Part shown: piece by piece, positions 609-23,445 of the stretch
Layout of the letters: each line of letters starts with the position of its first letter
Numbering within the stretch: position 1 is the stretch's first letter
Assembly (NCBI GenBank): GCA_938020525.1
Contig: CALIHW010000069.1
Coordinates: forward strand, 1-44,471
Reading direction: 5' to 3'
DNA: 44,471 nt
Source of the DNA: an uncultured Granulosicoccaceae bacterium
Lineage (GTDB): Bacteria > Pseudomonadota > Gammaproteobacteria > Granulosicoccales > Granulosicoccaceae
Notes under the pieces: generated by a model
Seen by the model: only the letters and a program-made list of their open reading frames with translations
Databases searched by the model: none
What the model was told of the DNA's origin: nothing
Translations under genes and position numbers: made by a program

Positions 609-3600
609 CTATGGTTGTAATTCGTAACGGAAGCGACGTTGAACCAGAGGCGCTGTCGTACTGCCTGCAGCATCGGGATAAAAATCAATGCCTACCCCAT
701 TCACCGCCTCGTTGTTGCCGCGCCAGAAAATTTCAATCGCTGACGGGTTGCCAAGCTGTGCACGTGATAGTCCAAGCTCTGCAATACTGCCAACTTGCGC
801 ATTACTCACTGTGGCCACATAGGTCCACAGCCAGTTAGTGCCAGTTCCGGAGTAGCCATAGAGGTCAGTTCCCTCGAGCAGAAAATCAGCACCAAATGGT
901 AGCTCTGATGAGAACCCGTTAAAGCCGGTCGAATTGTCATCGTCGGTACCTATAAACGCTGCATGACCATAGGTAAGGCGATTCATAACAGTATCATTCT
1001 GATAGGCCAGATAGATCATGGATCCACTATGCGCTATATAGCCTTGCCTGAAATCTACTTCTTCAGCGCTGGCAGGAATATCTGCAGCATCCGCTGCCAA
1101 TGGAGTCAGGCCTGCCCAGTCCTGTAAGCTACCGTCGATGGTAAGCGTTGCAATAAAGTTTGAATCATTAGCCGCTGCCATTGCCGGATTAACGGTAATA
1201 GTGACCACTGCAGGCGATCCGCTTAGCTGCCCGTCCTTGGCAAGAAACTCAAATGAGTCTCCACCACTGAAACCTGCGTCAGGCGTATATTGAAGCGCCG
1301 GTCCGACACCTGATAAAGACCCATTACTGGGCTGCCTGGTGATCTGAAAAACGACTGAATCACCGTTAGCGTCAGTCGCAGACAAATTCACAGAAACAGA
1401 AGTATCCTGCGGAACTGTCACTAGCTGTGAGGCCGCAACAGGAGCTACATTCTGACTTTGATTCGCCACATCATAAACAAAGAATCTGCCCGAAGTACCA
1501 GCATCAAGCACGGGATCAGGATAGTAATCGACAGTCGTGCCATTGAATGCCGCGTTTTCACCGACATAAAACAGCTGCAGCATCGCGGGATCACCCATCA
1601 GGTCGCGCGGCACACTAAACTCTGCATTTTTACCGTTAAACTGAATATCCACAGTATGCACGGTAGTCCAGCTCCAGTTGTTACCGAATCCGGTGTAGCG
1701 CAATAACTCGTTGGCTTCTAACAGATAGTCTGCACCGACTGGATAACTGCCGTCGAAATTCTGAAAACCGGTAGCGGCACTGTTGTCAGTATCGATGTAA
1801 ATACCATAACCCCAACTCAACGCTACCGGGTTATCATTGCGATAGGCAAAGTAGAAGTTGGTACTATCGTGAGCCACCCATGCCTCACGCCAGTCGACTT
1901 GATCACCGGCACTGGTAGCATCTACAGGATCTAAACCAAAAGAGCTAATACCTGCCCACTCTGCAAGTGATCCATCAACAGTAATAGTAGTTTCATTGCT
2001 CGGCGCCTCACCAATATTGATGATTGAAACCGTCGCTACCGCACTGGTTGAAGTAGCATCACTGACCGTAAAGGTAAATGCATCAGTCCCGCGATACCCG
2101 GCATCCGGCGTATAGACAACCGCGGGTGGTGTACCGGCAAGGCTTCCGTTTGACGGTTGATCTATAACTTCATAAGTTAAAGTATCAGCGTCGAGATCCG
2201 TGCCGGTAAGTACAATTGATAATTGTCCATTCTCAGCAACAGTGAGATTCTGCGCCAGTGCAATTGGTGGTGAGTTACCACCGTTGTTTGCAATAGAGTA
2301 GGTAAAAAATCGATTATCATCTGCCAACGATGCATCAGCAACGCCGTTCGGAAAGAAGTCAAGCGTTGATCCACCAACGGCCGCATTGTTACCGTTGAAG
2401 AAAAGACGTAATGATGCAGGATCTCCCAACAAACTTCTTGGTACCGCAAGCTCTGCATTATTCTGATTAATAGCAAATTCAGCCAGACCTATCTCGTCCC
2501 AACTCCAGTCAGTACCCGCACCGGTATATCGCTGTACATCCCGGCCTTCTATCAGATAATCAGCACCAACTGGCAGCTCACTGCTAAAACCTTTAAATCC
2601 GGTATTGATGTCACCATCGACGTCAATGAAAATACCGTAGCCCCAGCTCTCTGCCACCGGGCCGTGACTACTATAAGTGATGTAAAAGTTATCGTCGTTA
2701 TGCGCAACAGAAGCACCCGCCCAATCTATTGTATTGGCACCAGTAGCATCATCCGGGTCATTACCAAACGTTGCCAGACCACTCCACTCGTTCACTGAAC
2801 CATCGATCACAACAGTGGTATTTCCGAGCGGGTTAGATACGCCTGCTATGGTTGGTGGTGTTACCGGAGGTACAGTAGGCGGTAACACAGGTGGCAATAC
2901 CGGCGGGGCAACCTGGTTACCTTCAAGCTGTAATAAATAGGCAGCGAGATCGATTTGTTCTGCAGCAGTTACAGTCACACTCAAGTGTGCAGTAATTGCA
3001 TCTTCTACCGTCGGTGCCGAGCCATCGTGCAAGTAGGGTGCAGTACGCCATAAACCAAGTAATGTGGGTGTATCGAGCCCGGTCAATGGCGCACCAAGGC
3101 GCTGACCACTTTCAGCCATCAGTGAGCCGACATCATGCAGTGAAGCACTGTTTGAATCAGTGAAAATATCTCCCGAGTGACAAGTGGCACAGCCTTTACT
3201 GACAAACAAAGACTCACCATTGAGTGCAGCGTTGGTCATCGTGCCATCAGCATTACGCCATGGACTTGGATCAACCGTGTCCAGGCTTTCCATATACGCT
3301 GCCAGTGCATCCAGATCAGCGCTTAAGCCGGCTTTGGCTGCACCCAGCGGAGGCGCGGTTGCAGCAAAGTCAGCGTCATTCATTAAACCGGTACCACCGG
3401 CAAATTCTCGAATTTGACCTTCGAAGTCCTGCACTTCGTCAAAATTACCAGTCCAGTGCAGAATACCGTGGCCGGTGCCGGCACGCCCTTTCAATGTAAT
3501 GGTATTGCGCAAGCCTTCACCCAGGCTGGTGAAATCCCAGGTTCGACCATCGTGCTCACCATCTACATGGCAACTGGCACAACTCATATAGTCAAGGCCT

Positions 3601-6600
3601 GCCAGGCGATCATCACGTGAATCATAAAAGAGTTGCTTACCGCGCAACACGGTATCAGTCAGCGCCTCATTACCTACCGTGTTTATTGTTGCCAAAACAG
3701 AAGCTGTAGATAAACCTTGTTGGGTAATACCTTCAATATCGTATACGCCGACAGTACGATCCATAAAGTTATGCACATACAATCGCCGACCGTCATTGGA
3801 AACCTCAATACTTTGTGGTGCATGGCCTGTATCAAAGCGCCCTATCTCAATACCGGTTTGCACATCTATTACAGAAATCTGCCGGTTGCCTTCAAGCGAT
3901 GTAAAAAGTGTTACACCAAGTGGGTCAAACGCAGAACTTGCGGCCACACTGGCGTTATCATGATCAATCCGGGAGCTGGTTATTTCGCGGTTATCAGTCA
4001 AACTGATTTTTGAAGTGATAGCGCGGACTGTCTGATCAAAAGTAATACCCGCACCGCCACGCAATGCACCGCCCAGAATGTTATCCTGCTTTGAAGGTAA
4101 CCACGCAGTATCACCATCCGGTGCAATCACTACCGGGCCAAGATAATTTGGCACGCCAGGGCCTTCATGCTCAGAGGCAATACGATTGATGTGCTTCATT
4201 ACAATGGTTGATTGTGTTGTCAGTGTCGCTACATCCAATACGAGTACCTCACCACCGTATTGCTGAGTACCATCATCAACCGTGACGATTGCGGTATCTT
4301 CCCCAGGAAGCGGATCGGTGATATAACGCGATACATAAAGCGTATTGCTATCAGACGTTAACGCCAGATGTCGCGGATTAGCCCCAACATCAGCGGTTAT
4401 TCCCAGTGCACCGCCTGCTGCCACGCGCTGCACTTCGCCGGTAGCCTGTAATGCTACTAATGCACCATTGGCATCAGTCACTATGCCATAAGGTTGGGAG
4501 GCTCTCGGCAACGGATAAGTAGCCACCACTGCAAGACTTGACGGGCTGACAACACTGATCGTTGCAGACTGTCGGTTAACCACCCAAACATTGCCATCAT
4601 TGGCTTCAGCAACACTCACTGGCTCATCACCAACTTCTATCTCGGCAAGCAATGAAAGTGAATCTGTATCTACAACAGCCACTGTATCGTTATCCGGATT
4701 GACGTTCCAGACCTGGTCTGCGGTGCTGTGCTCAAGCAATCCTCGTGACGCCTGTGCCAGGTTGTTTTGCACAGGCGGATGTACCACCTGGGTAAACGTA
4801 CTACGTATCTCCTGCCCTGATGCATCGCGTACTGTCAGACTAACTACATACCTACCCGGTCTTGCGTAGGTATGTGTTATCTCAGGGTTACGTCGGTAAG
4901 CGGTATCGAGATTGCCATCACCGAAATTCCAGCGATACTCAACATCAACCCCACCACTGGCATTTGCAGCAAAATTAACCGACGTCCCCTGTTGTACAGG
5001 TGATGCTATGATCGGCTGCACAACAAGTGGCGCTGATTGCTCAGTACCGAATACCTGAACCTCTGCCATATGTAAAAATGCAGGTAGGTTATTGGAGTCC
5101 AGCTGCACTCTTATATATCGACCGCTTCTTGAGATAGCCAGATTAGTGACTTGAGCTGCAGCGCCTGCATTAAATTGGTTTAGCACTCCGGGTTGTGCAA
5201 TGGTGTTGCCGAGACTTTTGCTGTTAAACGGCCTGTCAGATACCAGCACATGAAAATCAGACAAGCGCTCTGCGCAGCAGTCAGTACGATTGTGGATAAC
5301 CACGGAATCAATATCTACCAACCGACCAAGATCAAGTTCCCACCAGGGATTAATATCGTTATCTGTATGACTGAGAACCCCATTGCGTGCACCTGGACAC
5401 TGCAAGCCAATAGCGTTTATCGAAGCACCTGATCGGCCGGTTAATCCAGCAGCAACTCCACCCGCACAATTGAATGGTCCAACCGCAGTGCCATTGTTTG
5501 AACCGGCTCTTGGCAAGGGTTGTATAACACCTGACACAGTGCTTGCAGAAACTAGCTTTTGACACTGCAACTGCACCTGATTGATTTGCGAATCTGCGCG
5601 ACCCTCAAATCCGGTGACAGCCCATCCTGACGGGCAACTTGCCGAGTAAGGGCTACCCGCAGCAGTACCTGTGGTACCCGTATCTCTAGGCTGGCCGATC
5701 CAGCTTCCGTTCTGCGCTACAGAAACACAGCGCGCACCAACACGGTTCAAAAGCGAATTGGCATTGCCAAAGATACCTACCAGCACTTCATCTCGAGTAC
5801 ATGACAGATCAAACGCGCTACCACCGCTACCGCCAATGGTATTCCTACTGCTGCTAACGTTATTGCCGTCGGTGAAGCCATCAATGGCTTTATTGGCAAT
5901 AAGCTCACTGTTTCGATACGTAGAAGACTGTGACGCCGTGCCACTCAGTGCCAGGTTGTTAATATCAGTTCGCTGTGAACCAAACACCTGTACCTCTGCC
6001 AACTGCAAGGCATTGTTACCGGCCAACTGTACACGAACATAGCGACCCACCCTTGAGACTTTGATATCTGTCTGTCTGCCCGCCACGCCACTGGTTGGAA
6101 AGTCTGTTACTCCAAGTTGTGAACGGGTAAGGGCAAGATCAGTTGATCCAAAAGGTTCCGCTGATACGAACACATGAAAATTAGACAATCGATCAGAACA
6201 ACAATCAGTACGGTTCCAGAGCCGAATCGTATCTATATCGACCACACGGCCGAGATCAAGCTCCCACCAGGGTTGCGCTTCAATTTGTGTATGACTCATC
6301 GAGCCTGCGATAGCGGCACCGCTTAAATCACTATCAATAGCACGGGCAGCCTCAAGCGAATCTGTTCGTGCTTGATTGGAAAAAGTAGAAGACTGTGTCG
6401 CTGTACCCTGTAATGCCAGATTTTCAAGACGAGTATCAAGTGCTGTAATTCTAATTACCTGCGCCTCTGAAGGAACACCATTCGTATCAACTGCAAACAG
6501 CATCCAGTAACCCGGTATGCTTACATTAGGGTTTTGATTGATCGTCACCGAAAACCTGTTGTTGCCAGTCGCTGCGAATTCAGGCTTATAGAATCTGGCG

Positions 6601-8081
6601 TCTGTATTAACCGCATGTGTGGTTGCTGACATACGGATGAGACTAAAGTAGTCAATATCGCCAGCAGTGATTACCTCTAGTGCATCACCGGCATCAACAC
6701 TTGCATCTGTAGCAGTCACTTCCGGTCGGGTCGCAAGGTTCCCACCTGAACTATACAAGTACGGTGGAGAGAAAATCTGCGCATCCTGATGATTGCCCTG
6801 ACGGTTCGGATTGGAAGGATGATAACCACCGCCTGCAGTGATCACGCGACCATCAGCAAGCAACATTGCTGTTGAGTGGTAGTCACGCGGCACTGCCATG
6901 TTCGCCATACCACGCCATTGACCGGTTGCCGGATTCCAGATTTCCGGCTCCATCACGCTACCAACGTCCTCGAATTTTGCACCGGAAGTGTTTCCACCCA
7001 CCACCAGGACTTCGCCTGTAGGTAATGGAATCAGCTGATGAAATTTGCGCCTGTGTGCCATGCTGCCAGTCGCACGTATGTCTGGTACTGAACCATTGAG
7101 ATCAATAGTAAATGCATTGTTTGCGGCTCCGGTGGCATTACCGCCCCAACTGCCATCATTGCGACCCGTCGAAATCATTTTGCCAATGTCATAGGTGAGA
7201 TGCACACCGCCCGCGTGATTGTCTCCATCCGTCACGGCCGTATTGGTACGAACCTCACCGCTACCCATCGGGTTGATCATGTGATTTTCAACGGTATCCC
7301 AGTAGTGAAAAATGTTCCCGTCTGGTGCAACACTCAATATCGGCCACGAATTATCACGACCGAGTTCATTGTTGCGTTGACGCATACCGAGAAAGTCGAC
7401 CCCATTCAACACACGCCAGCCAGTATCCGGATCCCAAAGATCAGGGTTTCGGGTATTAGTCGCACTGCCCATTGCGGTCATTATCTTGCCGTCACCTGTT
7501 GCAAGCGAGGTTGGATACCACCGCCCACCACTGGCCATATTTTCCACGGTTTGCCATTCGTCGTTAGCGTAATCAAACAACGTCGTCCACGGACTGTTGC
7601 CCTGATTACGGCCGCCATTAACCAACACTTTGCCATCCGCTGTCATCGACATCGCAGCGCAAAACATGTTGTGGCCCGCGTGTAGATTCTCTTCGAACGT
7701 TCCAGTTATCGGATTCCAGATAGCACTGTAAGTCTGCTCGGTGGTAGGCCAAGTGCGCCGCTCTGAACCTGAGTAAGTTAGTACACGACCATCCGGCAAT
7801 GCCGCCATAGACACAGCAATATGTGGCCAGTCCAACACTGACCCCCAACTACCAATATCGGCCGGTTCCCCTACCGCCGCGCCAAAAACCAGCTCGGCGC
7901 TTGTTTCGGTCACCGTGTCCGTGTCAGTGCCCGTCTCAATGAAAATGTCCGAAACCGGCTCCACCTCTTCGGTCGCCGCCTCCTCGGTTGCAGTTACCCG
8001 CAGAGGAGCATTGCCTCCACTGTCGCACGCGGACAACAGCAGAGTTAGCAGCCATACCTGAATGAATAATGCAGAACGCAT
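609..8081 (-). CDS. giant multidomain lipoprotein: copper-radical oxidase fused to a di-haem peroxidase-like module
   Basis: A 2490-residue secreted lipoprotein (lipobox LLSAC, Cys19) followed by an acidic Thr/Glu linker. Residues ~75-440 form a galactose-oxidase-like propeller that ends in a DUF1929-type domain (~445-547). All the copper-radical residues can be placed by resemblance to galactose oxidase: Cys141 (NMFC), Tyr189 (RWYPT), Tyr401-His402 (DYHSTA) and His489 (THAVNTD). Next come discoidin (F5/8C) domains at ~553-705 and ~712-1010, the second with a ~150-residue Cys-rich insert. A PKD domain (~1017-1100), a YVTN/YncE-like propeller (~1104-1465) and a MauG/cytochrome c peroxidase-like region with two CXXCH haem sites (CASCH ~1501, CATCH ~1630) follow. 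After a Pro-rich linker come three ~175-residue beta-sandwich repeats separated by two cadherin-like domains. Known family chemistry would be oxidation of an alcohol or aldehyde to yield H2O2, and haem-dependent use of H2O2. The substrate is unknown. The fusion is uninterrupted. Confidence 0.9.
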   Translation of the reverse strand: MRSALFIQVWLLTLLLSACDSGGNAPLRVTATEEAATEEVEPVSDIFIETGTDTDTVTETSAELVFGAAVGEPADIGSWGSVLDWPHIAVSMAALPDGRVLTYSGSERRTWPTTEQTYSAIWNPITGTFEENLHAGHNMFCAAMSMTADGKVLVNGGRNQGNSPWTTLFDYANDEWQTVENMASGGRWYPTSLATGDGKIMTAMGSATNTRNPDLWDPDTGWRVLNGVDFLGMRQRNNELGRDNSWPILSVAPDGNIFHYWDTVENHMINPMGSGEVRTNTAVTDGDNHAGGVHLTYDIGKMISTGRNDGSWGGNATGAANNAFTIDLNGSVPDIRATGSMAHRRKFHQLIPLPTGEVLVVGGNTSGAKFEDVGSVMEPEIWNPATGQWRGMANMAVPRDYHSTAMLLADGRVITAGGGYHPSNPNRQGNHQDAQIFSPPYLYSSGGNLATRPEVTATDASVDAGDALEVITAGDIDYFSLIRMSATTHAVNTDARFYKPEFAATGNNRFSVTINQNPNVSIPGYWMLFAVDTNGVPSEAQVIRITALDTRLENLALQGTATQSSTFSNQARTDSLEAARAIDSDLSGAAIAGSMSHTQIEAQPWWELDLGRVVDIDTIRLWNRTDCCSDRLSNFHVFVSAEPFGSTDLALTRSQLGVTDFPTSGVAGRQTDIKVSRVGRYVRVQLAGNNALQLAEVQVFGSQRTDINNLALSGTASQSSTYRNSELIANKAIDGFTDGNNVSSSRNTIGGSGGSAFDLSCTRDEVLVGIFGNANSLLNRVGARCVSVAQNGSWIGQPRDTGTTGTAAGSPYSASCPSGWAVTGFEGRADSQINQVQLQCQKLVSASTVSGVIQPLPRAGSNNGTAVGPFNCAGGVAAGLTGRSGASINAIGLQCPGARNGVLSHTDNDINPWWELDLGRLVDIDSVVIHNRTDCCAERLSDFHVLVSDRPFNSKSLGNTIAQPGVLNQFNAGAAAQVTNLAISRSGRYIRVQLDSNNLPAFLHMAEVQVFGTEQSAPLVVQPIIASPVQQGTSVNFAANASGGVDVEYRWNFGDGNLDTAYRRNPEITHTYARPGRYVVSLTVRDASGQEIRSTFTQVVHPPVQNNLAQASRGLLEHSTADQVWNVNPDNDTVAVVDTDSLSLLAEIEVGDEPVSVAEANDGNVWVVNRQSATISVVSPSSLAVVATYPLPRASQPYGIVTDANGALVALQATGEVQRVAAGGALGITADVGANPRHLALTSDSNTLYVSRYITDPLPGEDTAIVTVDDGTQQYGGEVLVLDVATLTTQSTIVMKHINRIASEHEGPGVPNYLGPVVIAPDGDTAWLPSKQDNILGGALRGGAGITFDQTVRAITSKISLTDNREITSSRIDHDNASVAASSAFDPLGVTLFTSLEGNRQISVIDVQTGIEIGRFDTGHAPQSIEVSNDGRRLYVHNFMDRTVGVYDIEGITQQGLSTASVLATINTVGNEALTDTVLRGKQLFYDSRDDRLAGLDYMSCASCHVDGEHDGRTWDFTSLGEGLRNTITLKGRAGTGHGILHWTGNFDEVQDFEGQIREFAGGTGLMNDADFAATAPPLGAAKAGLSADLDALAAYMESLDTVDPSPWRNADGTMTNAALNGESLFVSKGCATCHSGDIFTDSNSASLHDVGSLMAESGQRLGAPLTGLDTPTLLGLWRTAPYLHDGSAPTVEDAITAHLSVTVTAAEQIDLAAYLLQLEGNQVAPPVLPPVLPPTVPPVTPPTIAGVSNPLGNTTVVIDGSVNEWSGLATFGNDPDDATGANTIDWAGASVAHNDDNFYITYSSHGPVAESWGYGIFIDVDGDINTGFKGFSSELPVGADYLIEGRDVQRYTGAGTDWSWDEIGLAEFAINQNNAELAVPRSLLGDPASLRLFFNGNNAAVGGSTLDFFPNGVADASLADDNRFFTYSIANNGGNSPPIALAQNLTVAENGQLSIVLTGTDLDADTLTYEVIDQPSNGSLAGTPPAVVYTPDAGYRGTDAFTFTVSDATSTSAVATVSIINIGEAPSNETTITVDGSLAEWAGISSFGLDPVDATSAGDQVDWREAWVAHDSTNFYFAYRNDNPVALSWGYGIYIDTDNSAATGFQNFDGSYPVGADYLLEANELLRYTGFGNNWSWTTVHTVDIQFNGKNAEFSVPRDLMGDPAMLQLFYVGENAAFNGTTVDYYPDPVLDAGTSGRFFVYDVANQSQNVAPVAASQLVTVPQDTSVSVNLSATDANGDSVVFQITRQPSNGSLSGVGPALQYTPDAGFSGGDSFEFLAKDGQLSGSPAVVTITVNPAMAAANDSNFIATLTIDGSLQDWAGLTPLAADAADIPASAEEVDFRQGYIAHSGSMIYLAYQNDTVMNRLTYGHAAFIGTDDDNSTGFNGFSSELPFGADFLLEGTDLYGYSGTGTNWLWTYVATVSNAQVGSIAELGLSRAQLGNPSAIEIFWRGNNEAVNGVGIDFYPDAAGSTTAPLVQRRFRYELQP
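2854..2913. repeat. five 12-bp tandem units encoding a Pro-rich linker
   Basis: Five imperfect 12-bp units (consensus GGYGGYnnYACC on the plus strand) encode the PPVx-type linker that separates the haem module from the C-terminal sandwich repeats of the giant lipoprotein. The repeat is in frame, so changes in unit number alter linker length without a frameshift. Confidence 0.75.
5391..5844 (-). other. Cys-rich module inserted inside the second discoidin domain
   Basis: The first discoidin copy runs from AIDSDL directly to SHTQ..PWWELDLG. In the second copy the same two strands are separated by ~150 residues. The insert contains three related units of the form C-x-VG/TG-x-GR/N-x-IN/LN-V/A-x-C (for example VTGFEGR..INQVQLQC). 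This is part of the 609-8081 gene, not a separate one. The repeats suggest a small disulfide-stabilised lectin-like fold, but I cannot name the family. Confidence 0.6.
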
Positions 8082-8699: not shown

Positions 8700-8786
8700 G
8701 CCCGGGTGGCGAAATTGGTAGACGCAAGGGACTTAAAATCCCTCGGTAGAAATACCGTGCCGGTTCGATTCCGGCCCCGGGCACCA
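8700..8786 (+). tRNA. tRNA-Leu(UAA)
   Basis: An 87-base class II tRNA with a long variable arm: acceptor GCCCGGG/CCCGGGC, anticodon loop CTTAAAA (UAA), T-arm CCGGTTCGATTCCGG, discriminator A and encoded CCA. Its 3' half recurs in decayed form about 0.9 kb downstream, which suggests it has served as an integration site. Confidence 0.97.
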
Positions 8787-9072
8787 ATAAAATCAATAGC
8801 TTAAATAAATTCTATATGGTGCTCAATTAGAGTGCTAAACAGATATTCGAAGTACAAACAAAAAAGCCCGATTTAGCTATCTGAGAAACAACAAAATGAA
8901 CCACAGCCACTCGGTGCTAGCCAACCCAGACAGAGCATTTCGAATTGAAATAGAATTATCAAATCACGGCACGATAAATATCGGATGTATTTATAGACAT
9001 CCAGATGTTCCGTTCTATTATTAGAAGGTACGCGTTTCTAAGACAGCTACCGCGTTCCTAGAGAGGTATGCG

Positions 9073-9549
9073 ATGAATAGAACTGAAAAACTTACTTTAT
9101 GGGCGGCCCTGGTTGGTCTTTTGGTGAACCTTATAGCAATTGCGAACTTCTCTGGGTTCCTGCCAGGTGGACCAGCCATAGCAGATAGGTCGGGCGCTTC
9201 GTTATTCTATGCCATATTTGCTTTGATATTTATATCTTACTCGTTCGTGATTCTAGGCTACATGTTGCTCAAGTTCCTTGCGAGCAAGTGGACGCTGGAA
9301 GATATGGGGCCGTCTGCTAGAGCCGCACAGAGTGCGATTAAGTTTTTTACCTATCTTTTAGTAGCGCCGATCTATCTGCTTTGGTTATTTACTGTCAATA
9401 ACTCTGGAGCTGTGTCATTGGATTTGCTAGTGCCCTTCGGTTTCTTCGGGGGGTTAGCATTGCCATTCTTATTGTTATTCGCTTCTAAAGCTCTCGTCGT
9501 CGTTCTTCATCCTGATTTAGAAGAAGCAGTCGAGTACGCAGTCAACTAG
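9073..9549 (+). CDS. four-helix inner-membrane protein, unknown function
   Basis: A 158-residue protein with four predicted membrane helices, at about residues 8-30, 44-68, 88-107 and 118-145. A short loop (KWTLEDMGPSARAAQSA) lies between helices 2 and 3, and the acidic tail ends in EEAVEYAVN. An AGAGG ribosome site lies 6 bases before the ATG. It is the only gene between tRNA-Leu and the decayed tRNA-Leu copy, so it is probably cargo of the element that left that scar. No family recognised. Confidence 0.7.
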   Translation: MNRTEKLTLWAALVGLLVNLIAIANFSGFLPGGPAIADRSGASLFYAIFALIFISYSFVILGYMLLKFLASKWTLEDMGPSARAAQSAIKFFTYLLVAPIYLLWLFTVNNSGAVSLDLLVPFGFFGGLALPFLLLFASKALVVVLHPDLEEAVEYAVN

Positions 9550-9690
9550 AGCCCAACGCTGGAGATCGCAAATAAGAAACCGTCTTGGACTCATAGGCAA
9601 AAGACAGCGTAACCCTAGCTAAACATACGGCCATTTCCAGCAAGTTTTAGGAAATAATATTGCACTAAGGTATTGTTTTTATTATCTAAT

Positions 9691-9753
9691 GCACAGGACT
9701 TAAAACTCCCTCGGTAGAATTACCGTGCCGGTTCAATTCGACCAGGCACCAAT
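9691..9753 (+). repeat. decayed 3' half of tRNA-Leu (att-like scar)
   Basis: About 63 bases match the tRNA-Leu gene from just before the anticodon loop to the CCA end (gGACTTAAAA, CTCGGTAGAA, TACCGTGCCGGTTC, GGCACCAAT), with several substitutions and a gap in the T-arm. No 5' half is present, so it is not a tRNA gene. Direct repeats of a tRNA 3' end are the usual mark of tyrosine-recombinase integration. No integrase remains. Confidence 0.8.
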
Positions 9754-10039
9754 CCAACAAGAATATTTCACCCACATCACCCATAGCTACATCAGCCGGG
9801 AATAACATCTGGCTCAATCGTGATACTTGTTTCGATATCTTAAGATAAAGCGAACAGGTTCAATAACAGATAACAGGCTGGCAATCGATAAATTTCGGTC
9901 ACTGATGCTATGTGTGTTTTTATTCACAATCTGGTGATGTTCACTCGTGCATCTTCCGGAGACTGACATACAGTTCTCGTGTTCTTACCTCTATTGACGA
10001 TAACCTAAAGGTGTCGTTAATGGAATAGCGGGAAAATAC

Positions 10040-10741
10040 ATGAATGTATTACTAGTTGAAGGCAACACTCTCCTACGAGAAACCATCAAACAAATCATAA
10101 TGAACTGGCAGACAGATGTGCTAGTGCATGATTATGAGTCGCTTGAAGACTTTGCATCCTCCTCCATCGAAATTAAATTCGAGCTGATAATACTCAAACC
10201 AGAGCAGCCATACTGTAACAACAGTGATGTTAAACACATTGCTGATACGCTACAGATTCGTTGTTCATTGCTTTAAAAACTTCACTCGGAACGAAGGTTC
10301 CACCAGCCATAACCAGCTGCAGTATCGCAAGAAACTCGTCACTTGAGGCAGTACCGGTAATAATGGCTTTCGATCCGGATTGAATAAGTTCCTGGACAAT
10401 TTTTCGATCAGCTGTATCCACCAGGCAAACTAGTGGTGAATCCGGCGGATCAATCTCATGATCGTCGATCAAAAAACACCGTCATTGACAACTATAATTT
10501 CAAATCTTATGGCTTGTCAGAACGGCATATTGAGGTGCTGAAACTACTCTTTCAAGGGTACTCAAACAAGGCGATCTCGGATGAGCTATGCTTGTCCATC
10601 AACACCGTAAAGGCTCACTTAACTTCAATTTTCAAACTCCTTTCAGTAAAATCACGCACAGAAGCTTTGGCCTTGTTCAGTCAAAATGTAATTCCCAATA
10701 ATTCCACGCAACAAAATCTTGTTTCAAAATATAATCGCTAA
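10040..10741 (+). pseudogene. CsgD-like LuxR-family regulator with inverted central segment (OFF form)
   Basis: On the plus strand the first 72 codons encode the start of a receiver domain (MNVLLVEGNT to ADTLQ), then the frame soon stops. Codons from ~10469 encode a LuxR-type helix-turn-helix (LSERHIEVLKLL..NTVKAHL). The missing middle of the receiver domain is encoded on the minus strand at 10467-10258. Re-inverting that block gives one uninterrupted 233-residue protein with both joints in frame. The receiver is degenerate: the acidic pocket is V-E-G, and the phospho-acceptor position in LIILKPEQP is Lys. CsgD, the curli activator, likewise has an atypical receiver. The gene converges on the csg operon and has a GGGAAAA ribosome site. 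As it stands it would yield a 78-residue receiver fragment and, if initiated internally, an HTH-only protein of up to 102 residues. Confidence 0.85.
10258..10467. other. inverted, possibly invertible, 210-bp segment inside the csgD-like gene
   Basis: The minus strand of this block encodes IDDHEIDPPDS to VFKAMNNE, which is the expected middle of the receiver domain. The junctions lie in GAT at 10255-10257 and its complement at 10468-10470. Around these, 10255-10268 and the reverse complement of 10458-10470 match at 10 of 13 positions with one gap, so any recombination sites are short and imperfect. No invertase or other recombinase gene is visible in the window. Confidence 0.8.
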
Positions 10742-10920
10742 AGAAATTATCTATATTAATATTCTTAATCTCAAATGAATAATTGTCTATACCTCGAATA
10801 CAATAGGGGATCTGATAATTTTACACGTGCAAAACACCAGATCTCTATTGATAAAGCAAGCGCTATATAAGCAACTTGAATTGAGAAAATAAATAGTCGA
10901 CTACTTCAATATTTTTCAAA

Positions 10921-10955
10921 ACTACTGATGCGTCGCCTCACGACGCACCAGTAGT
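10921..10955 (-). terminator. terminator of the csg operon
   Basis: A hairpin with 15-base arms (10921-10935 and 10941-10955) and a 5-base loop. As minus-strand RNA it is fully paired, counting one G-U pair, and it runs into TTTT. It begins 11 bp after the csgG stop and separates the operon from the convergent regulator gene. Confidence 0.8.
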
Positions 10956-10966
10956 AGATAGGCTAT

Positions 10967-12112
10967 TTAACTTTTGACTTTCGATTGATCTGAGAGAACA
11001 TCGTTAGTCGCAGAAACTTCGGCACTTGGCTCCGGTATAATATTCTGATTCGTGTTCTTCGTGGATGCAGTAGCGATATTGAACTCGCCTCCACCATCTT
11101 TTTTGCGAAGTAGCTGCAAACTCGAAGTGTGCTTATTTAATCGGGCTATTCCATCACGCATCCGAATGTTAACTGCGTTGACGAACTTCTCCTTCTCTAA
11201 TTTTCTGGTAGCTGCCAGGCGTATATCTTCAACAAAGTGTTGACGCTCGTTATCAGACAAGAAACGGTCGAAGGCTGTTGATTCTACGTCGTTAGCGTTC
11301 TCCAGTTGTAGTGTGCCGGCCACTACACCATCAGCAATTAGATTGATCAACGCTGATTCTACAGCCTCAGTCACAGCAATATGAGAAGGTTCATTGTAGC
11401 TAAAGCCCGCTTCTGTATCGAGAATTTGATCTGCATCAATATAGCTGAATATCCCACTGTCAAGCTTACGTGAGAAGAGTCGCTTCGTACTCATGACATT
11501 ATGAAGTATTAGCCCGTCATCGATATCAATCATTCGAATGTTAATAGTTACTCTATCTTCCCTGTAAGATGAAGAGCCACCCAAGCCCAGAAGCCGTAGC
11601 CCGGCACCGCCTGTTTGGGTATTAGAATCATAGGAGACAATGCTTCCTTCAATAATGACCTCCGCGGGTGCTACCGACGGTAGTTTGGCTTCACTATCTT
11701 CCTTATCAAGTAAGCTGGATTTTAGAATCTTTCGTTCTGTCAGCAAGCTTTGCAGGCTGGTTCTTTCTACAGGCGCAAACCATTTTGAATCAAGCAAAGC
11801 ATTTATCAAAATAGCATCCGCACCTTGCGTAACAGCAGTCGACAATCCATTTGACGGTTGTGGTTTATACTGACCAGAGTAATCCCTAAAAGAATAAACT
11901 GCGGCACGTAAAATACCCCTTGGCCGTGGAAGTGACTCGAGATCTATACGAGTTTGCGTTATCTCAGGCACAGTAGCCCTGGAATGCAACCCATCATTAC
12001 CTGGTTGAGGTTTAAAAGAAGCGCAACCCGATAGTGAAATCAGCGATACACAGGCAAAGAAACGGATCAAATTACCGCAACCTAAATCTGATACTATCTT
12101 CCATTTACACAT
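10967..12112 (-). CDS. csgG: CsgG, curli secretion channel lipoprotein
   Basis: A 381-residue lipoprotein (LSGC, Cys30) that forms the outer-membrane nonameric pore exporting curli subunits. CsgG hallmarks are visible in order: the SFRDYSGQYKPQP stretch, STAVTQGADA, DSKWFAPVERTSLQSLLTERK, IIEGSIVSYDSN, SGIFSYID and AGFSYNEPSHIAV. The start overlaps the csgF stop by 8 bp, indicating translational coupling. E. coli CsgG is 277 residues. This protein carries an extra C-terminal tail from about residue 285, charged and Asn/Ser-rich, of unknown role. It is the last gene before a strong terminator. Confidence 0.95.
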   Translation of the reverse strand: MCKWKIVSDLGCGNLIRFFACVSLISLSGCASFKPQPGNDGLHSRATVPEITQTRIDLESLPRPRGILRAAVYSFRDYSGQYKPQPSNGLSTAVTQGADAILINALLDSKWFAPVERTSLQSLLTERKILKSSLLDKEDSEAKLPSVAPAEVIIEGSIVSYDSNTQTGGAGLRLLGLGGSSSYREDRVTINIRMIDIDDGLILHNVMSTKRLFSRKLDSGIFSYIDADQILDTEAGFSYNEPSHIAVTEAVESALINLIADGVVAGTLQLENANDVESTAFDRFLSDNERQHFVEDIRLAATRKLEKEKFVNAVNIRMRDGIARLNKHTSSLQLLRKKDGGGEFNIATASTKNTNQNIIPEPSAEVSATNDVLSDQSKVKS

Positions 12113-12545
12113 CGTTCTGTACCTGTATTACTGTTCGATCGCCAGTTAGTTTATCAACCGTCTCTATTGTCACTAATCCGTTCCCTTCATCGATCACGTT
12201 AATTGTATAGTCAATAGTATCGAAGATACCTGGAGTAATATTTCCATCTATATCAATAATATCCTGAGTAACGGCACTAGTAATACGCCCGAGAAGTGAT
12301 CTTTGAAGTCGCTCATTAAATTCATCTAATGGACTCTGTTCCTCAAGTCCATCGTCCTGAAACTGATTTTGTGCACTGGCTAAACCCAATAGATGGGCAC
12401 TATTATTTGGGTTTCCACCAAAAGATGGGCTAATAAACTGATGAACGAGCTCAGAGCCTGAAGCAACCTGACTGGATACTGCCAGACAAAAGACCAAGGA
12501 CAAACAGATATTTGTTTTTTTACTTTCCATAGTTATTATTTTCAT
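12105..12545 (-). CDS. csgF: CsgF, curli nucleation/anchoring factor
   Basis: Secreted accessory protein that caps the CsgG pore and couples export to CsgB-templated nucleation. The mature start VHQFISPSFGGNPNNSAHLLGLASAQNQF is the family's N-terminal CsgG-binding segment, here split only by my description; the motif FGGNPNN is diagnostic. The C-terminus TGDRTVIQVQ also matches the family. The start chosen is the ATG at 12545, because AAAGGA lies 8 bases upstream. A longer reading frame to 12590 overlaps csgE and lacks a site. The gap to csgE is 13 bp and the stop overlaps csgG. Confidence 0.93.
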   Translation of the reverse strand: MKIITMESKKTNICLSLVFCLAVSSQVASGSELVHQFISPSFGGNPNNSAHLLGLASAQNQFQDDGLEEQSPLDEFNERLQRSLLGRITSAVTQDIIDIDGNITPGIFDTIDYTINVIDEGNGLVTIETVDKLTGDRTVIQVQNDV

Positions 12546-12558
12546 AATATTTTTCCTT

Positions 12559-12951
12559 TTAGTTTGATGGTACAAGCAGGCCTTGCTCACGAGCGTCAGC
12601 CAAAAAAGCTAAAGCTATTTCCTGCGGCTCGTTCTTATAGCGATTTTGCGAAATAGATAAATGATGAGTCGAAATAACTCTCAAAGGTGTCTGCAGTGTT
12701 AACAATATCTTTCTACCAGAGACCCTCTTTTCTTCCAATACCACAGATGACTGAACCTGCATTTTTTGAAGATATATCAACTGAGTAAATTTCTGAGCAA
12801 CATCATCACCCAGTCGAGATTCTGTACTAATTGTCACAACATTAAGTGAATCATTCAGCGTTTGAGAGGCGGATAAAGATGGTTGGTCAGCAAAACAGGT
12901 CTTTGAAAAAGCAAAAATACTAACCAGATAGATAAATAATCGGACTCGCAT
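12559..12951 (-). CDS. csgE: CsgE, curli export chaperone/adaptor
   Basis: A 130-residue protein with a signal peptide (cleavage near FADQ), the same size as E. coli CsgE (129). CsgE caps the periplasmic mouth of CsgG and selects curli substrates. The central pattern (a hydrophobic helix, then VVLEEKRVSGRKILLTLQT..L) fits the family, though similarity is modest and the call leans on position between csgB and csgF. A strong AGGGGA site lies 7 bases before the ATG. Confidence 0.85.
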   Translation of the reverse strand: MRVRLFIYLVSIFAFSKTCFADQPSLSASQTLNDSLNVVTISTESRLGDDVAQKFTQLIYLQKMQVQSSVVLEEKRVSGRKILLTLQTPLRVISTHHLSISQNRYKNEPQEIALAFLADAREQGLLVPSN

Positions 12952-13015
12952 AAATTTCCCCTGTAAAGATCCTTGGTGTCAATTCTATAAAGTATAAATA
13001 TTATTCGACTAATAC

Positions 13016-13624
13016 TTAGTAACTATCTATCTTCACAGTTTCGCCAGATCCTGACTGTGTTACATCCATTACGACATTAGAGCGATTTACACCTAACTCT
13101 ATATCGTTGTCTGAGCCGTTTTGAGATACACCAATGTTTATATTGCTACCTGAAAGTGAAAGGGACGCTCTATTGTTACTTCCACCTTGCTGAATGTTAG
13201 TTGAGCTTAAACTGCCATTAGATTCGAGAAGTACTGTATTTTCAGAGCCGCTCTGGTTTATCAGATTTCCATTAGAACTCCCAAATAGACTTCCAAATAT
13301 CTGGTTTCTATTTCCTGTTTGGTTTATGTGCAAGTGATTACCGGAACCAAACTCGGTATCCAGGGAAATTCGACCATAATTACCATGCTGATAAATCGAT
13401 GCATCTATATCCCTTCCAAAGTTTGCATCGAGAGCATTTGCTATCCCTGATTGATCAACTTTCACCTCAACATCACTACTGCCAGAAAGACTAATCTCTA
13501 CAGATCCACCCTGCCCATTTTGTTCGATAGATAAATCATTCGCTTGTGTACTTATACTAACAAGCATCAATATTGCGACGGCAAAATAAGTTACAAAGCT
13601 ATTGTCAAATTGTTGATCTTGCAT
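13016..13624 (-). CDS. csgB: CsgB-like curlin (minor/nucleator subunit)
   Basis: A secreted amyloid subunit of about 202 residues with a signal peptide (FAVAILMLVSISTQA) and about eight curlin repeats of ~22 residues in the form S/N-x5-Q-x-G-x2-N. Examples are SIEQNGQGG, INQTGNRN, INQSGSENT, VSQNGSDND and VTQSGSGE. The start is the ATG at 13624, since AAGGA lies 7 bases upstream. A TTG at 13675 lies inside the intercistronic hairpin and is less likely. It is assigned as the nucleator because it is shorter, has more charged repeats and follows csgA; the two curlins could be reversed in role. Confidence 0.82.
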   Translation of the reverse strand: MQDQQFDNSFVTYFAVAILMLVSISTQANDLSIEQNGQGGSVEISLSGSSDVEVKVDQSGIANALDANFGRDIDASIYQHGNYGRISLDTEFGSGNHLHINQTGNRNQIFGSLFGSSNGNLINQSGSENTVLLESNGSLSSTNIQQGGSNNRASLSLSGSNINIGVSQNGSDNDIELGVNRSNVVMDVTQSGSGETVKIDSY

Positions 13625-13652
13625 GGTTTCATCCTTGTTCACAGTTCCAAAT

Positions 13653-13686
13653 ATGCTCCGGTTTTGAATTTGCAAAACCGGAGCAT
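13653..13686 (-). promoter_or_regulatory. perfect 14-bp hairpin between csgA and csgB
   Basis: ATGCTCCGGTTTTG (13653-13666) and its exact reverse complement (13673-13686) flank a 6-base loop, 18 bp after the csgA stop and 28 bp before the csgB start. There is no following T-run on the minus strand, so it is more likely an mRNA-stabilising or processing structure, or a weak attenuator, than a full terminator. It could favour the major subunit over the nucleator. Confidence 0.7.
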
Positions 13687-13704
13687 CTCCTTCTACAAAA
13701 CTAT

Positions 13705-14796
13705 CTACTTAACGATTGCTTTAGCTTTGTTATCATCACCAGCTTGCTTGATTACGGTCGTGTCATAAGCACCACCTTCACTGCTAACTGTCGCAGTATT
13801 ATTCCAACCTGTTTGATAAGCAGCTACAAATGAACTATTAGCCTTCTTGAAATCGATATCAATTAGGTTGCCACCACTATATTCTTGCAACAGGTAAATA
13901 TCGTTATTGTTAGAGGCTATTAGATCGGCTTCGATCACATCATGGCTACCAAACTGCTGTGTAGCCTGAAAACGGTTCTTATCACCTTTCACAGTTACAT
14001 CTATACGTGAACCTCTTGATTTGAATTGATCCGTTTTAACAGTGTTCTCATCACCAACAGTTTTGAGATTTGCTATCTGAGCAATTCCATTTTGCTGAAG
14101 CAACGTTTTGTTGCCATTACCATAGACCGCGACGGTTCCTTCGTTACCTTCACCCCATTGGCTGGTTTTAACACTGTTATAAGTACCGCCAACATAGGTA
14201 GTAACAGTATTTCCCCACCCACCCTGGTCATTATCTACACCGTTGTGGTCACCGTAGACACTGATATTGGCTTCGTTCTCGCTGCCAACTTGTACAGAGT
14301 CAACAGTGTTAGAGCTGCCGGCAATTGCTACACCAGCAGTCTGGCCGTAGCCGTCCTGTATTACTATGCTCGTGTTTGCTTCACCCCAGACACCTACCTC
14401 TGCTTGGTGAGATTCACCGTACTGTTCAATCGTAGATTTGGAATCGGTCGCATAGTCCATAATGACTAAAGCGCCATTGTTTTGGCCTTCTTGATATACG
14501 AAAGACGATGAGCTTGTAGCATCCTGGGCAGTTACCGATTTATTTTCATCACCTAGTTGAATCACTGTAGTTGAAGCCGTACCGCCAGCACTTTGAAATG
14601 TTTTAGACTTATTTTTAACACCGATCTGTGCTGTCTTGGATACATTACCTCCATCACGAGTAGATTCCCAAGTGAACTCCAGAATCTCCTTGTATGGATC
14701 TGCGTGTACGCCAATTAACTCATACTCGATTTCGGCCATTGCAACTCCTGGTAGAATCAGAGCGACAGCCATTGCAGTTTTTGTTGCTTTAAACAT
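13705..14796 (-). CDS. csgA: CsgA-like major curlin with about 14 repeats
   Basis: Major subunit of curli amyloid, 363 residues (E. coli CsgA: 151). Signal peptide MFKATKTAMAVALILPGVAMA, then a short N-terminal segment (EIEYELIG to TWESTRDGG) that may act as the CsgG targeting signal. From about residue 51 to the end, 14 units of ~22 residues follow, mostly starting with Asn and carrying Q-x-G near position 7-9 and N near 12. Examples are TVIQLGDENKS, STIEQYGESHQ, TSQWGEGNEG and VIKQAGDDNKAKA. A good AAGGA site lies 6 bases before the ATG. Several repeats have Gly-Asp or Gly-Asn gatekeepers, typical of CsgA. Confidence 0.93.
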   Translation of the reverse strand: MFKATKTAMAVALILPGVAMAEIEYELIGVHADPYKEILEFTWESTRDGGNVSKTAQIGVKNKSKTFQSAGGTASTTVIQLGDENKSVTAQDATSSSSFVYQEGQNNGALVIMDYATDSKSTIEQYGESHQAEVGVWGEANTSIVIQDGYGQTAGVAIAGSSNTVDSVQVGSENEANISVYGDHNGVDNDQGGWGNTVTTYVGGTYNSVKTSQWGEGNEGTVAVYGNGNKTLLQQNGIAQIANLKTVGDENTVKTDQFKSRGSRIDVTVKGDKNRFQATQQFGSHDVIEADLIASNNNDIYLLQEYSGGNLIDIDFKKANSSFVAAYQTGWNNTATVSSEGGAYDTTVIKQAGDDNKAKAIVK

Positions 14797-14958
14797 GATA
14801 TTTCCTTAGTTATGTTTCAAATAATTAACAGAATAATCTCTGTATTTTCGCGAGTCCTCGCACTGTAGAGTGTTCATCTCTTCATTTATTTCGAGTTTCA
14901 ATATATTCTTTGAAATCAATTTTTAATCCTTGATATTCTCAGGAAATAAAAAATAAAA

Positions 14959-15246
14959 TCATTTGTTGATCCGAATATTTATTGAGTTCGACTTCCCTTT
15001 ACTTTTTATACGAATTCTTGATCCATCTTTACTGATCAGATCAATATCAGCACTATCGCAGTTTTCAACTACTATGGAGTTTTCATCCACAGATACCGTT
15101 TTTTTACAATCTGGGTTTTCAGTTGTCAGTTCGGTAGAGGAACTGATTTCTGTAGACCCAATGCTGTTCGATGAGAAAGCAAGAAAATTGATTAAGGCAA
15201 TAGCCGATAAAGCACTACACGCCTTTGAAGAAAAAAACATATACAT
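14959..15246 (-). CDS. small secreted protein in the curli locus, unknown function
   Basis: A 95-residue protein with a likely signal peptide (to about NSIGS). The mature part is Ser/Thr-rich with two cysteines 16 residues apart (DCKK and ENCD), then a charged beta-like tail (SRIRIKSKGKSNSINIRINK). AAGGA lies 10 bases before the ATG. It sits 162 bp upstream of csgA on the same strand. Size and position recall CsgC/CsgH-type amyloid inhibitors, but I see no CXC motif or clear similarity. An equally long plus-strand frame covers the same bases and is taken to be antisense. Confidence 0.6.
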   Translation of the reverse strand: MYMFFSSKACSALSAIALINFLAFSSNSIGSTEISSSTELTTENPDCKKTVSVDENSIVVENCDSADIDLISKDGSRIRIKSKGKSNSINIRINK

Positions 15247-15885
15247 CTAACAGATTTCCTTTGATTACTCACGAGGCTTATATTAGTAATCTGGTATCTC
15301 CTGGTATATTACGCTAAGGTCTTTTTTTCTTCGTATATATGACTATTTTGTGCTTTAGTTATTAAATTTAGTAACACCAAAGTCTTAGTCGGTTACTGCA
15401 TATCAAGTAAATTCCTGTGAATACTATTACTTATCCAACCCAGGGACGAAACAGTACGGTTAGTTTCAAGTAGATGAGCAATAAAAACACAGGGATCTAG
15501 CGCGAAAAAACGAACATGGTAAACAGCGATATATCGGTTAAGCCAATACAGGCTCTTTTAGGCAATAGATTTTGGGTGTAATTTCAGAACAAATATGCAT
15601 CTCCATCGCAAGAACACTTTCAATGGCTAGGAGAAATTTGAAATGACGCAACAGGTAACGAATCACACCAATAATGATAAGCACTCGACAATTGATCTCC
15701 CCAGTAACACATAAAATAGATGTTTCTCAGTGTTAATTCCGCAAGTACTCTCACTACTAATTAATTACAACTCTAAATGGGGGATATTTATCTATGATGA
15801 TGATGAGTGAGCGTTCATTAAACAATGAACGCTTACGATGATGAGGAGTTGAGCTACTCTGAACTTCAAGAACCCGCTGAAACGA
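15247..15885. other. 639-bp intergenic region with a hairpin
   Basis: AT-rich DNA with no credible gene. It should hold the promoter of the 14959-15246 gene. The only clear structure is a perfect 10-bp stem at 15810-15833 (AGCGTTCATT, loop AAAC, AATGAACGCT), 52 bp past the OmpA-like stop. It lacks a T-run on either strand, so termination is uncertain. Confidence 0.5.
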
Positions 15886-16434
15886 CTACTTTTCTGTACC
15901 GTTGAGAAGTGACACACGCACTTCCATTCGTTGATTTAGATGTCGGCCCTCCAGCGTGGAATTTGGATGTGCCGGCATGTATTGGCCCATACCCATTGCC
16001 GTTATTGTAGCCTCTGGATACGCACCCTGTAAGAATGCTTGCAGTGTTCTAGCTCTCAATAATGACAGATGTAGATTATCTTTTTCCGTACCACTGGAAT
16101 CTGTATGGCCAATCACATGAATTGATTGTATACCGTGTAACTGCTCAAGTTTACCAATCAGTTTCAAAAGTGATTGCTCGCTATTTGCAGCTGGAAAATC
16201 AGAATTGTGAGCAAATACCGCACTACTTTGCAGAATGATATTTTTCTCAACAGGGGTGGTTGGAATTACCGTAAATACAACTTCAGGATCAGCGCTGATA
16301 TTAGTAATCGGCGTAGAACTACCAGAGTCGTTACCTTCAGCTGTGTTTGTGGCAATAACCTCGCTAGCGCAAATTGAAGCGCTAGACAGTAAAGACACTA
16401 ACAACGAAATCCTTCTAATTACTTTCATATCCAT
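15886..16434 (-). CDS. OmpA-family peptidoglycan-binding protein next to curli genes
   Basis: About 182 residues: a signal peptide, a Ser/Thr-rich spacer, then an OmpA C-terminal domain with the peptidoglycan-binding features VIGHTDSSGTEKDN, LSLLRARTLQAFL, MGMGQYMPAHPN and LNQRMEVRV. The start chosen is ATG at 16434, with AAAAGGA 8 bases upstream. Upstream codons in the same frame have no site. OmpA-like genes accompany csg genes in other marine gammaproteobacteria, so it may anchor the secretion machinery to the wall; this is inference from location. Confidence 0.85.
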   Translation of the reverse strand: MDMKVIRRISLLVSLLSSASICASEVIATNTAEGNDSGSSTPITNISADPEVVFTVIPTTPVEKNIILQSSAVFAHNSDFPAANSEQSLLKLIGKLEQLHGIQSIHVIGHTDSSGTEKDNLHLSLLRARTLQAFLQGAYPEATITAMGMGQYMPAHPNSTLEGRHLNQRMEVRVSLLNGTEK

Positions 16435-17223
16435 GCGAGATCCTTTTCTATATGAATGAATTGCGGACCAATTAAACATCAAATACAAAAAAGAGACTAT
16501 AGAGTAAGTCAAAAAACAGAAATTCGGACATAAGGTTACGTTCACCTCATTCTTACTTCATGCAGTACGTAAAATTATTAGTGTACTTTTCTCTGCTTTA
16601 TTATCAGGTCATAAAACGCTTCCAGAACCATCAAAGCTAAAGATAACGGATGGACGCTCGAAAGGAGAAAGACGTCAGCTGGCTTACAAAAGTACTCAAT
16701 TCAAACATTGACTGTAGTATTCACGAAGCGACTAACAAAATAACACGAATGCTATACGCAATTTGGTACTGGTGCGATCAGAGTCTCAGGTGTTGAGGTA
16801 ATAATGACTCCGGTTGAATTCAGATCAACAATGGCCATCGGGATTAGAACACGCTACCCATAACCTGGTTAACGCCAGTTCAAATCATACTCTACAAAAA
16901 AATTAAAATGCCATACGCCGGACGCCAGATATTCAGAAAAAATATGCGACAAAGTTCTCGATGGCTCGGTATCTCTTAGACAGGCACCCTTGCTCTTTAC
17001 GTCTTACCCGCAAGAAAATGTGCGCGCCTGAGTCGATTTTGCTCGCGGAAGTACGATTAGGAGACGTAGATATCAACATAGTTGATCATCCACTCTATAA
17101 GAACGGCGGCCATTTGCTTCCGGTCAAACCGAAAAATACACAGGCGGTAATAACAATGTCGATTCTCTCGCCTTGCTGAACAACATGCAAAAACAAGCAG
17201 CAAATCGGCTCAAACGATACCTG
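16435..17223. other. 789-bp region without recognisable genes
   Basis: Short frames only, none with a credible ribosome site or recognisable motif. A 72-codon plus-strand frame at 16961-17179 has no similarity I can name. The composition suggests decayed DNA in the accessory block. Confidence 0.5.
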
Positions 17224-17328
17224 TTAAAAAACAACTTCCTTGAGTAACTTTAATAAGAGCAGCAACCAAAGACTTCCACCCGCAACCAGCGAAAACACGA
17301 ACACCCAGTAAAAAATATCCTGTTTCAA
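17224..17328 (-). CDS. 34-residue single-helix membrane protein
   Basis: A TTG-started frame of 34 codons with a full AGGAGG site 7 bases upstream (17336-17341). The product has a short polar start (MKQDIFYW), one membrane helix rich in Val/Leu (FVFSLVAGG to LLLLLK) and a basic-acidic end (LLKEVVF). Its size is like that of regulatory or accessory mini-proteins such as KdpF or CydX, but the sequence is not like them. The strength of the ribosome site is the main argument that it is real. No partner gene is nearby. Confidence 0.5.
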   Translation of the reverse strand: MKQDIFYWVFVFSLVAGGSLWLLLLLKLLKEVVF

Positions 17329-18201
17329 GTGAACCCCTCCTGCACACTTTCAATAGCTTCTTACAACAGTGAAAAGTAGTCTGGTCCACAGTAGTACCTG
17401 TGTACCGTTTACCGTTGCTTCTCTGACTGACTCAAGTGGGTGATGCGCAATGGGTATTGTTGACCGCATAACACACAATTAACTCTAAAGGTTGCTCGTC
17501 TTTCTTCCCTTGTAGCTGGCAACTTAATATACACGAATCATAAATGCAAACAAGTGTATTAATGCCGATCATTAAGGGTTGTAATTCTGCTGTAGATTGG
17601 GTTATGCAGAACTCGAAAACACAAAAAAACTCCGGTATTGAGGCTATTCTCTGCACAAAATCGACGATAATTTGACACTTGAATAGCTCATTAGCAAACC
17701 AATACAGTACCAAAGCTATAAGTCAACTATCACGATTCGCAAAGCACTTTACTCACGGGTAAACAATTGCTCTTTATACGGTCTAAGAAATTCCCGCAAT
17801 GGCTTCAGTGGCGCGTTCATTCGGATGAATACCATCTGTAAACATAAACCGCGTGATGTACTCGAACCATACATCCACCAGCTAACCGCACATATATTAC
17901 GCAATTTGGGTTACTTTTAGATCTTAGACAGAAAACTACCGATATAGAACTTCAATGAGGGCGGCAAAGTGGACGGCGGCACGCCGGCATTATCCGAATA
18001 CTCTTCATTCATCAGATAGACTCAAAAGCACCGAACCAGTACCGTTCATTTGAGAACTTGTTATTTCAGCAATCAAATATTCTGTTTTATTGCACGTATC
18101 AAGCGGGTCAGCTGATACCCTCAACTACAGACAACTGCCCTACCCTTATGACTAGTCGCGGGTTATCATCATCTGCAAGATTTAACGGAAAAAAGATTGA
18201 G
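17329..18201. other. intergenic region containing an SGNH-hydrolase scrap
   Basis: No intact gene is seen. A minus-strand frame at 17432-17713 (TTG start, no ribosome site) is Cys-rich but unrecognised. Only the stretch at 17782-17884 resembles a known family. Confidence 0.5.
17782..17884 (-). pseudogene. C-terminal fragment of an SGNH/GDSL hydrolase
   Basis: The minus strand reads WFEYITRFMFTDGIHPN then ERATEAIAGIS and a stop. The DGIHPN block is the last catalytic block (Asp-x-x-His) of GDSL lipases/esterases. An in-frame stop lies just upstream and no other blocks are found, so this is a remnant. Confidence 0.4.
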
Positions 18202-22535: not shown

Positions 22536-23204
22536 TTAATTTCGCTGTTGATCGTTACCAAGAAAACCACTATCCCTGCCCATTTCTATCAGCTCCGGCA
22601 AAGTATTTACTTTTAGCTTTTCAAAAGCCCGTCGCTTGTAAGTGCTTACTGACTTTGGACTAAGAAATAGCATAGAACCAACGACACCAGATTTGTGACC
22701 ACTCATGAGTAAAAGCACCACCTGCAGCTCGCGCCTGGAAAGCTCGTCCAACGGATGCTTGCCATCACTTTGCTTTAATGAATCAAGCGCCATCTGGTTA
22801 GCAACCTCGCGTGAGAGGTAAGTACCACCCTGCATCACACAGTCGATTGCCTGCTCGACCTCTTCAGTTGCAGAAGCTTTCGTCATATAGCCACTTATAC
22901 CAGCCTGTAGTACGACTCGGGATACTGGTCGATCCTCCAACCCGGTAAGTATAATGATTTTCAAGTTCTCATCGATTTGTAACAGCCGCAACGAGGTGGA
23001 AACACCATCCTGACCAGGCAAACTGAAGTCCATAAATACTACATTTATTGGATGTTTACGGACTACTGGAATGCTGCCCTCACCGGTTGAAGCCTCATAC
23101 ACTTTGCTATTAGCTCGCGGTGATGACTCAAGAATCATTCGAAGACCTGAACGAAAAAGATCATGGTCATCGACCAGCAGGATGTTAATTGAACGATCGG
23201 GCAT
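22536..23204 (-). CDS. gacA: GacA/UvrY-type response regulator
   Basis: 222 residues: a receiver domain with Asp12-Asp13 and phospho-acceptor Asp59 (VVFMDFSLPG) and a C-terminal LuxR helix-turn-helix (LSRRELQVVLLLMSGHK..VSTYKRRAF). Linkage to uvrC and pgsA on one strand is the classic uvrY(gacA)-uvrC-pgsA order. By that homology it would answer to a BarA/GacS-type kinase and drive Csr/Rsm small RNAs, which often control biofilm genes. The HTH part (SGHKSGVVGSMLFLS) is more divergent than in typical GacA, so the call is made largely on context. Confidence 0.82.
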   Translation of the reverse strand: MPDRSINILLVDDHDLFRSGLRMILESSPRANSKVYEASTGEGSIPVVRKHPINVVFMDFSLPGQDGVSTSLRLLQIDENLKIIILTGLEDRPVSRVVLQAGISGYMTKASATEEVEQAIDCVMQGGTYLSREVANQMALDSLKQSDGKHPLDELSRRELQVVLLLMSGHKSGVVGSMLFLSPKSVSTYKRRAFEKLKVNTLPELIEMGRDSGFLGNDQQRN

Positions 23205-23445
23205 TTTAAAACAACTGCACTACAACACGAATTGACGGTCATTAAAACACATCCCGTAATCACTCGCAGTTAACATAAAACCACTAAATACGAGGGCTTC
23301 AGGCGGAATTTCGCGTGTGAAAAGTTTCGATCATCGAAATTACCGCAACTTGCGACTCATGCCCGGATACTTTCCCTTAGCGCGGATTCGTACAAACTGA
23401 ATTATCAGGAAAAAGAAAGCCTTAAATGCGAGGTTTCAAGCAAGC

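Follow-up and report, generated by a model that had tools for sequence, protein, structure and literature searches.

Why should a regulator gene beside a curli operon read on one strand at its two ends and on the other strand in its middle? The gene in question occupies positions 10040-10741 of the window, by which we mean the whole stretch of 44,471 nt that was analysed, contig CALIHW010000069.1 (C69) of an uncultured Granulosicoccaceae bacterium. In the assembled sequence, the start and the helix-turn-helix (HTH) of this csg-linked, LuxR-type gene lie on the plus strand, and the minus strand holds the latter half of its receiver domain. The N-terminal part (10040-10257, plus strand) holds a stop-free piece of 72 residues (10040-10255), the inverted core (nominally 10258-10467, minus strand) one of 69 residues (10260-10466) and the C-terminal part (10468-10741, plus strand) one of 90 residues (10469-10738); with one split codon per joint, reading frames and arithmetic give 233 residues. 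A sequence-only reading of this DNA had described a gene split over the strands beside the csg operon, whose re-inversion yields an unbroken protein of that length, and both claims are borne out, the three pieces (plus, minus, plus) reading without stops and in the correct homology order. In the present orientation, the plus-strand frame from 10040 crosses into the inverted core, where it is closed by a stop after 78 codons, and the C-terminal part belongs to a 102-aa ORF beginning with a GTG at 10433, from which the HTH part alone could be made. The split gene is present as one copy in its genome.

What kind of regulator this is can be read from its C-terminal part and from its neighbours. 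The C-terminal piece carries a LuxR/GerE HTH (PF00196, E 3.5e-16), for which the best NCBIfam model is MadR, with CsgD second (E 1.6e-11), and the best PDB chain by sequence is VpsT. Against the CsgD equivalog NF007505, this piece alone reached 44.3 bits, compared with a cut-off of 250 bits, and the other pieces gave no CsgD match. Downstream, all on the minus strand, are a convergent CsgG-like curli secretion protein (10967-12112, E 2.5e-57), a CsgF-like protein (12105-12590, E 2.6e-13) and a curlin of the CsgA/CsgB type (13705-14796, E 6.9e-17), each below its equivalog cut-off, together with a probable CsgE (12559-12951), so called from gene order only and with no curli family match, and a CsgB-like curlin-type repeat protein (13016-13675) similar to ORFs in two other csg loci (L064 and L065). 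Because the CsgG-, CsgF- and curlin-like ORFs at 10967-14796 adjoin it, we regard the gene as csg-linked; its probable role is the control of curli fibres. It resembles the LuxR-type biofilm regulators CsgD and VpsT in its GerE HTH, its atypical receiver and its adjoining csg genes.

That the core has been inverted is shown by the order of homology, not by the open frame alone. We compared the pieces with a first profile of length 225, made from 20 relatives with uninterrupted genes; 22 loci had been offered, and L014 and L015 were left out for want of an HTH match at E 1e-6 (a further locus, L011, with 174 codons, is cut by its contig start). On this profile, which is partly circular because a match to the core had brought in 17 of its 20 members, the N piece fell at positions 13-65 with 8.5 bits (best of 300 shuffles, 7.1), the core at positions 86-145 with 35.4 bits and the C piece at positions 159-223 with 74.2 bits. 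The alignment made with the first profile misplaced parts of the short pieces, and profile matches were used in its stead. A second profile was built from 9 loci picked by HTH or CsgG rather than by the core (26 offered, the rest outside 195-300 codons), with 23 distant loci from an HTH search of genome contigs being used for this profile only. Here, the core again matched ahead of the HTH, at positions 80-138 with 16.0 bits versus at most 3.2 in 300 shuffles, and the C piece matched at positions 156-218 with 72.0 bits; the N piece reached 0.1 bits, with shuffles up to 4.3. Among 539 six-frame stretches of the window, only the HTH of this gene and an intact regulator elsewhere in the window (22539-23219) outscored the core on the second profile. 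With the relative L003 as query against this genome, the HTH was found at 10511-10684 on the plus strand and the core at 10257-10448 on the minus strand. A tblastn search for the core at E 1e-6 found 5 of 19 relatives' loci, and the Pfam receiver model matched neither the N piece nor the core when each was taken singly.

The core is placed as the second half of a receiver-like domain by two profiles, and the first half weakly and by one profile only; the assignment of the N piece is weakly supported by its frame, its position and a start that looks receiver-like by eye. Taken together, the sequence supports a LuxR-type regulator that is linked to csg and has its core inverted. An open frame as proof of inversion was rejected, since the window has 34 clusters in which an inversion of 120-600 nt would join frames, 33 of them elsewhere than here; 26 are on the plus strand and 8 on the minus strand and, by eye, they mostly lie opposite long genes.

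The place of the joints is less sharply given than the inversion itself. The frame stays open with 949 breakpoint pairs, of which 437 also agree with the homology, with possible breakpoints at about 10231-10266 on the left and 10445-10483 on the right and an inverted length of 181-252 nt. The joints proposed from the sequence alone, at 10258 and 10467, are one pair among these 437 and the event is not pinned there.

Do the two boundaries resemble each other, as the ends of a recombining segment would? Over the 437 admissible pairs the longest exact inverted run was 5 nt, and the score of the left against the right boundary zone was equalled by 55% of random zones. At the joints the sequence-only reading had seen a GAT with a 10-of-13 extension. 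The GAT run is present, an exact run of at least 3 nt occurring in 5% of random pairs, but the extension is no better than chance: 6 of 26 positions match in register (reached by 66% of random pairs), the gapped score was equalled in 58% of random pairs, and the best ungapped match nearby, 9 of 11 nt, was equalled or bettered at 13% of 150 random places. No dyad above chance was found at these joints, with 78% (left) and 12% (right) of random sites as good. An exact inverted 7-mer is shared between the zones (10206 and 10514), outside the breakpoints that keep the frame. A flanking inverted repeat at the joints was rejected in three tests, the similarity of the boundaries being at random level.

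These results bear on whether the inversion is a programmed switch, in which a recombinase would flip the core so that a full regulator alternates with a 78-aa fragment and an HTH-only ORF. Intragenic invertons and gene-altering programmed inversions, those of Chanin et al. 2024 and Milman et al. 2023, reportedly have their segment inside one coding sequence, which they truncate, and the present locus is alike in this respect. Invertons that intersect genes are known; they are sought by their flanking inverted repeats, and calling them takes reads of either orientation (PMC11892184). The present case, with a longest run of 5 nt over 437 pairs, no repeat exceeding chance and a single orientation, differs from those described there. 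The frame could be restored without loss, and the HTH part could begin from the GTG at 10433, both of which would suit a switch. So would the presence of one serine recombinase domain in the genome, but it lies on contig C73, in a 169-codon open frame that runs off the contig end, and its best models, XisF and Mpi, are both far below their cut-offs. It is accompanied by five tyrosine-recombinase matches, three of them over cut-off (XerD, XerC and an integron integrase), one Xer-like protein below it and one without a family match, all on other contigs. A search for these two families, tyrosine and serine recombinases, found none on contig C69. A contig running straight through the gene also suggests one dominant orientation, and the second orientation of the core was not found, the species being represented by a single genome. 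With neither repeat nor dyad above chance, no such recombinase on the contig and the related cores found all in open frames, the phase switch put forward earlier seems to us very improbable. It had been argued that the undamaged state of the fragments spoke against old decay; the pieces do lack stops and frameshifts, but this fits a young one-off mutation or an artefact as well as a reversible switch.

Slightly less credible still is reversible flipping without conventional repeats, by a low-specificity recombinase such as that on C73, which would alternate the whole protein with an HTH-only form from the GTG at 10433. Were the inversion reversible, a regulator linked to csg would carry an inversion switch within its own coding sequence. 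The bistability of CsgD in Salmonella (cited in PMC11868660) is one of expression and, to our knowledge, involves no DNA rearrangement; the likeness would lie in heterogeneity in a curli regulator. No csgD inversion of this type was found in the literature searched by title and abstract opening, a search that lay mostly outside subscription papers.

Is the split arrangement shared by relatives? Matches to the core were found in 19 of 57 genomes (own included), and all 20 rows from other genomes lie within frames that stay open for 174-253 codons; 17 of these rows entered the first profile, and in each of those the receiver is in frame with the HTH. A sample of the class gave core matches in 15 of 369 genomes (own included), and 15 of 15 rows from other genomes were open over 196-266 codons, as judged by the open frame alone and not by an HTH in the same frame; one genome of this sample (G020) is also in the set of 57. 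The relatives' cores are 25-37% identical to that of the split gene and many may belong to paralogues. At this distance they show the normal architecture rather than the recent history of the split gene. A comparison of both orientations in related genomes, as had been recommended, returned related cores in open frames throughout, from distant relatives. With the DNA of 8800-18000 as query, none of 13 congeners shared the locus, and 5 of 13 matched only at a tRNA-like stretch. Viral contigs yielded no opposite orientation by the core pattern and, by protein, 13 stretches that fit a pattern but none that was a relative; 265 plasmid records were matched by the HTH, and the 10 of these matches that were listed are response regulators or LuxR-type by name, apart from one unannotated. 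The genome itself contains an uninterrupted paralogue (L103, contig C72), 43% identical to the relative L003, whose HTH is 54% identical to that of the split gene over 52 residues; tblastn with the core did not match its receiver.

Other csg loci were compared as well. In the family, CsgG matches were found in 5 of 48 genomes (own included), with two others strong (G011 and G068) and G013 weak, and the regulator pieces had no match at E 0.05 in the csg stretches of these three. In the class sample, 36 of 369 genomes (own included) had CsgG matches, and the stretches of the best five, which are more distant, were read. The core and N pieces matched in none of these five loci (L098-L102); the nearest two by CsgG, L098 and L099, had no HTH match, and L100, L101 and L102 each had one near csgG, within an unbroken frame of 228-276 codons. 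The key positions of a receiver we take to be the acidic pair, the phospho-acceptor Asp, the Thr/Ser and the Lys. By eye, on the first-profile alignment, the receiver of the split gene lacks all of these and so is probably not phosphorylated; in L100-L102 most of these positions have departed too, with the Asp kept (by eye). The split gene's receiver is, in these terms, more degenerate than theirs, and the loss of the Asp, along with the split by inversion, is where it differs from CsgD and VpsT.

It may be, then, that the gene was already a decaying pseudogene when the inversion occurred as one event among others. The lost receiver positions, and their greater departure than in L100-L102, are what such prior decay would leave behind, and because L100-L102 keep the Asp lost here, we gave this explanation more weight and a one-off microinversion less. 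Against it, the pieces contain no stop or frameshift, and atypical receivers are usual in CsgD-type regulators. We hold prior decay to be improbable.

An error of assembly or library preparation is a more serious competitor, which we rank second and regard as unlikely, if well within reason. The gene would then be whole in the source cells, and chimeric reads or the filling of a gap would have turned its core round. At 93.3% completeness, the genome is spread over 224 contigs and, given this fragmentation, looks metagenome-assembled; local errors giving incorrect protein-coding sequences have been described for metagenome assemblies (PMC7111523), and pieces free of damage are what an artefact would show. 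Yet it would need two joints, made without N and without detectable loss or duplication, around a 210-nt core that is generally within reach of paired short reads, and the neighbouring csg ORFs are uninterrupted.

We consider a recent one-off microinversion that knocked out the regulator to be the most likely explanation, and hold it with reasonable though far from full confidence. A recent single event is favoured because the ends are unmarked and the gene shows no other break; the absence of stops in the pieces makes the event look young. An inversion of about 180-250 nt (nominally 10258-10467) would have turned round the middle of the csg-linked LuxR-type regulator, with a few shared bases probably serving for template switching or microhomology-mediated repair. 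An inverted run of at most 5 nt and boundary zones at random level fit such illegitimate joining. The regulator would be out of function in the sampled lineage, and curli expression probably altered. Reversal would be rare, since there is no repeat that a recombinase or homologous recombination could use.

In-place inversions with as little flanking homology have been described between human and chimpanzee, where 8 of 59 microinversions, 17-33 nt long, have inverted repeats of just 3 nt at their edges (PMC8755829). Those cases are like the present one in being inverted in place with flanking inverted repeats that can be as short as 3 nt; they differ in being eukaryotic and 17-33 nt long, whereas ours is prokaryotic and about 210 nt, with breakpoints unpinned. 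The length is unusual for an illegitimate microinversion, being far above the 17-33 nt cited. If real and fixed, this would represent a clear knock-out of a bacterial gene through a microinversion that happened in place and had hardly any homology at its ends. Such mutations are hidden by ORF callers because the parts resemble small genes on opposite strands.

Some features of the surroundings deserve mention. A tRNA-Leu gene lies at 8729-8788, and an 85% identical copy of its 3' part lies about 1 kb downstream, before the csg genes (8700-8786 and 9696-9753). G+C content per kb is 38-45% over 9001-18000, compared with 43-54%, mostly at least 46%, elsewhere. The csg region looks like a genomic island placed at the tRNA gene. 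By eye, recombinase- or transposase-like ORFs occur near the csg operons of L064 (G011) and L065 (G068). The minus strand at 609-8081 is taken up by a single ORF, 2490 codons long, whose start looks lipoprotein-like by eye.
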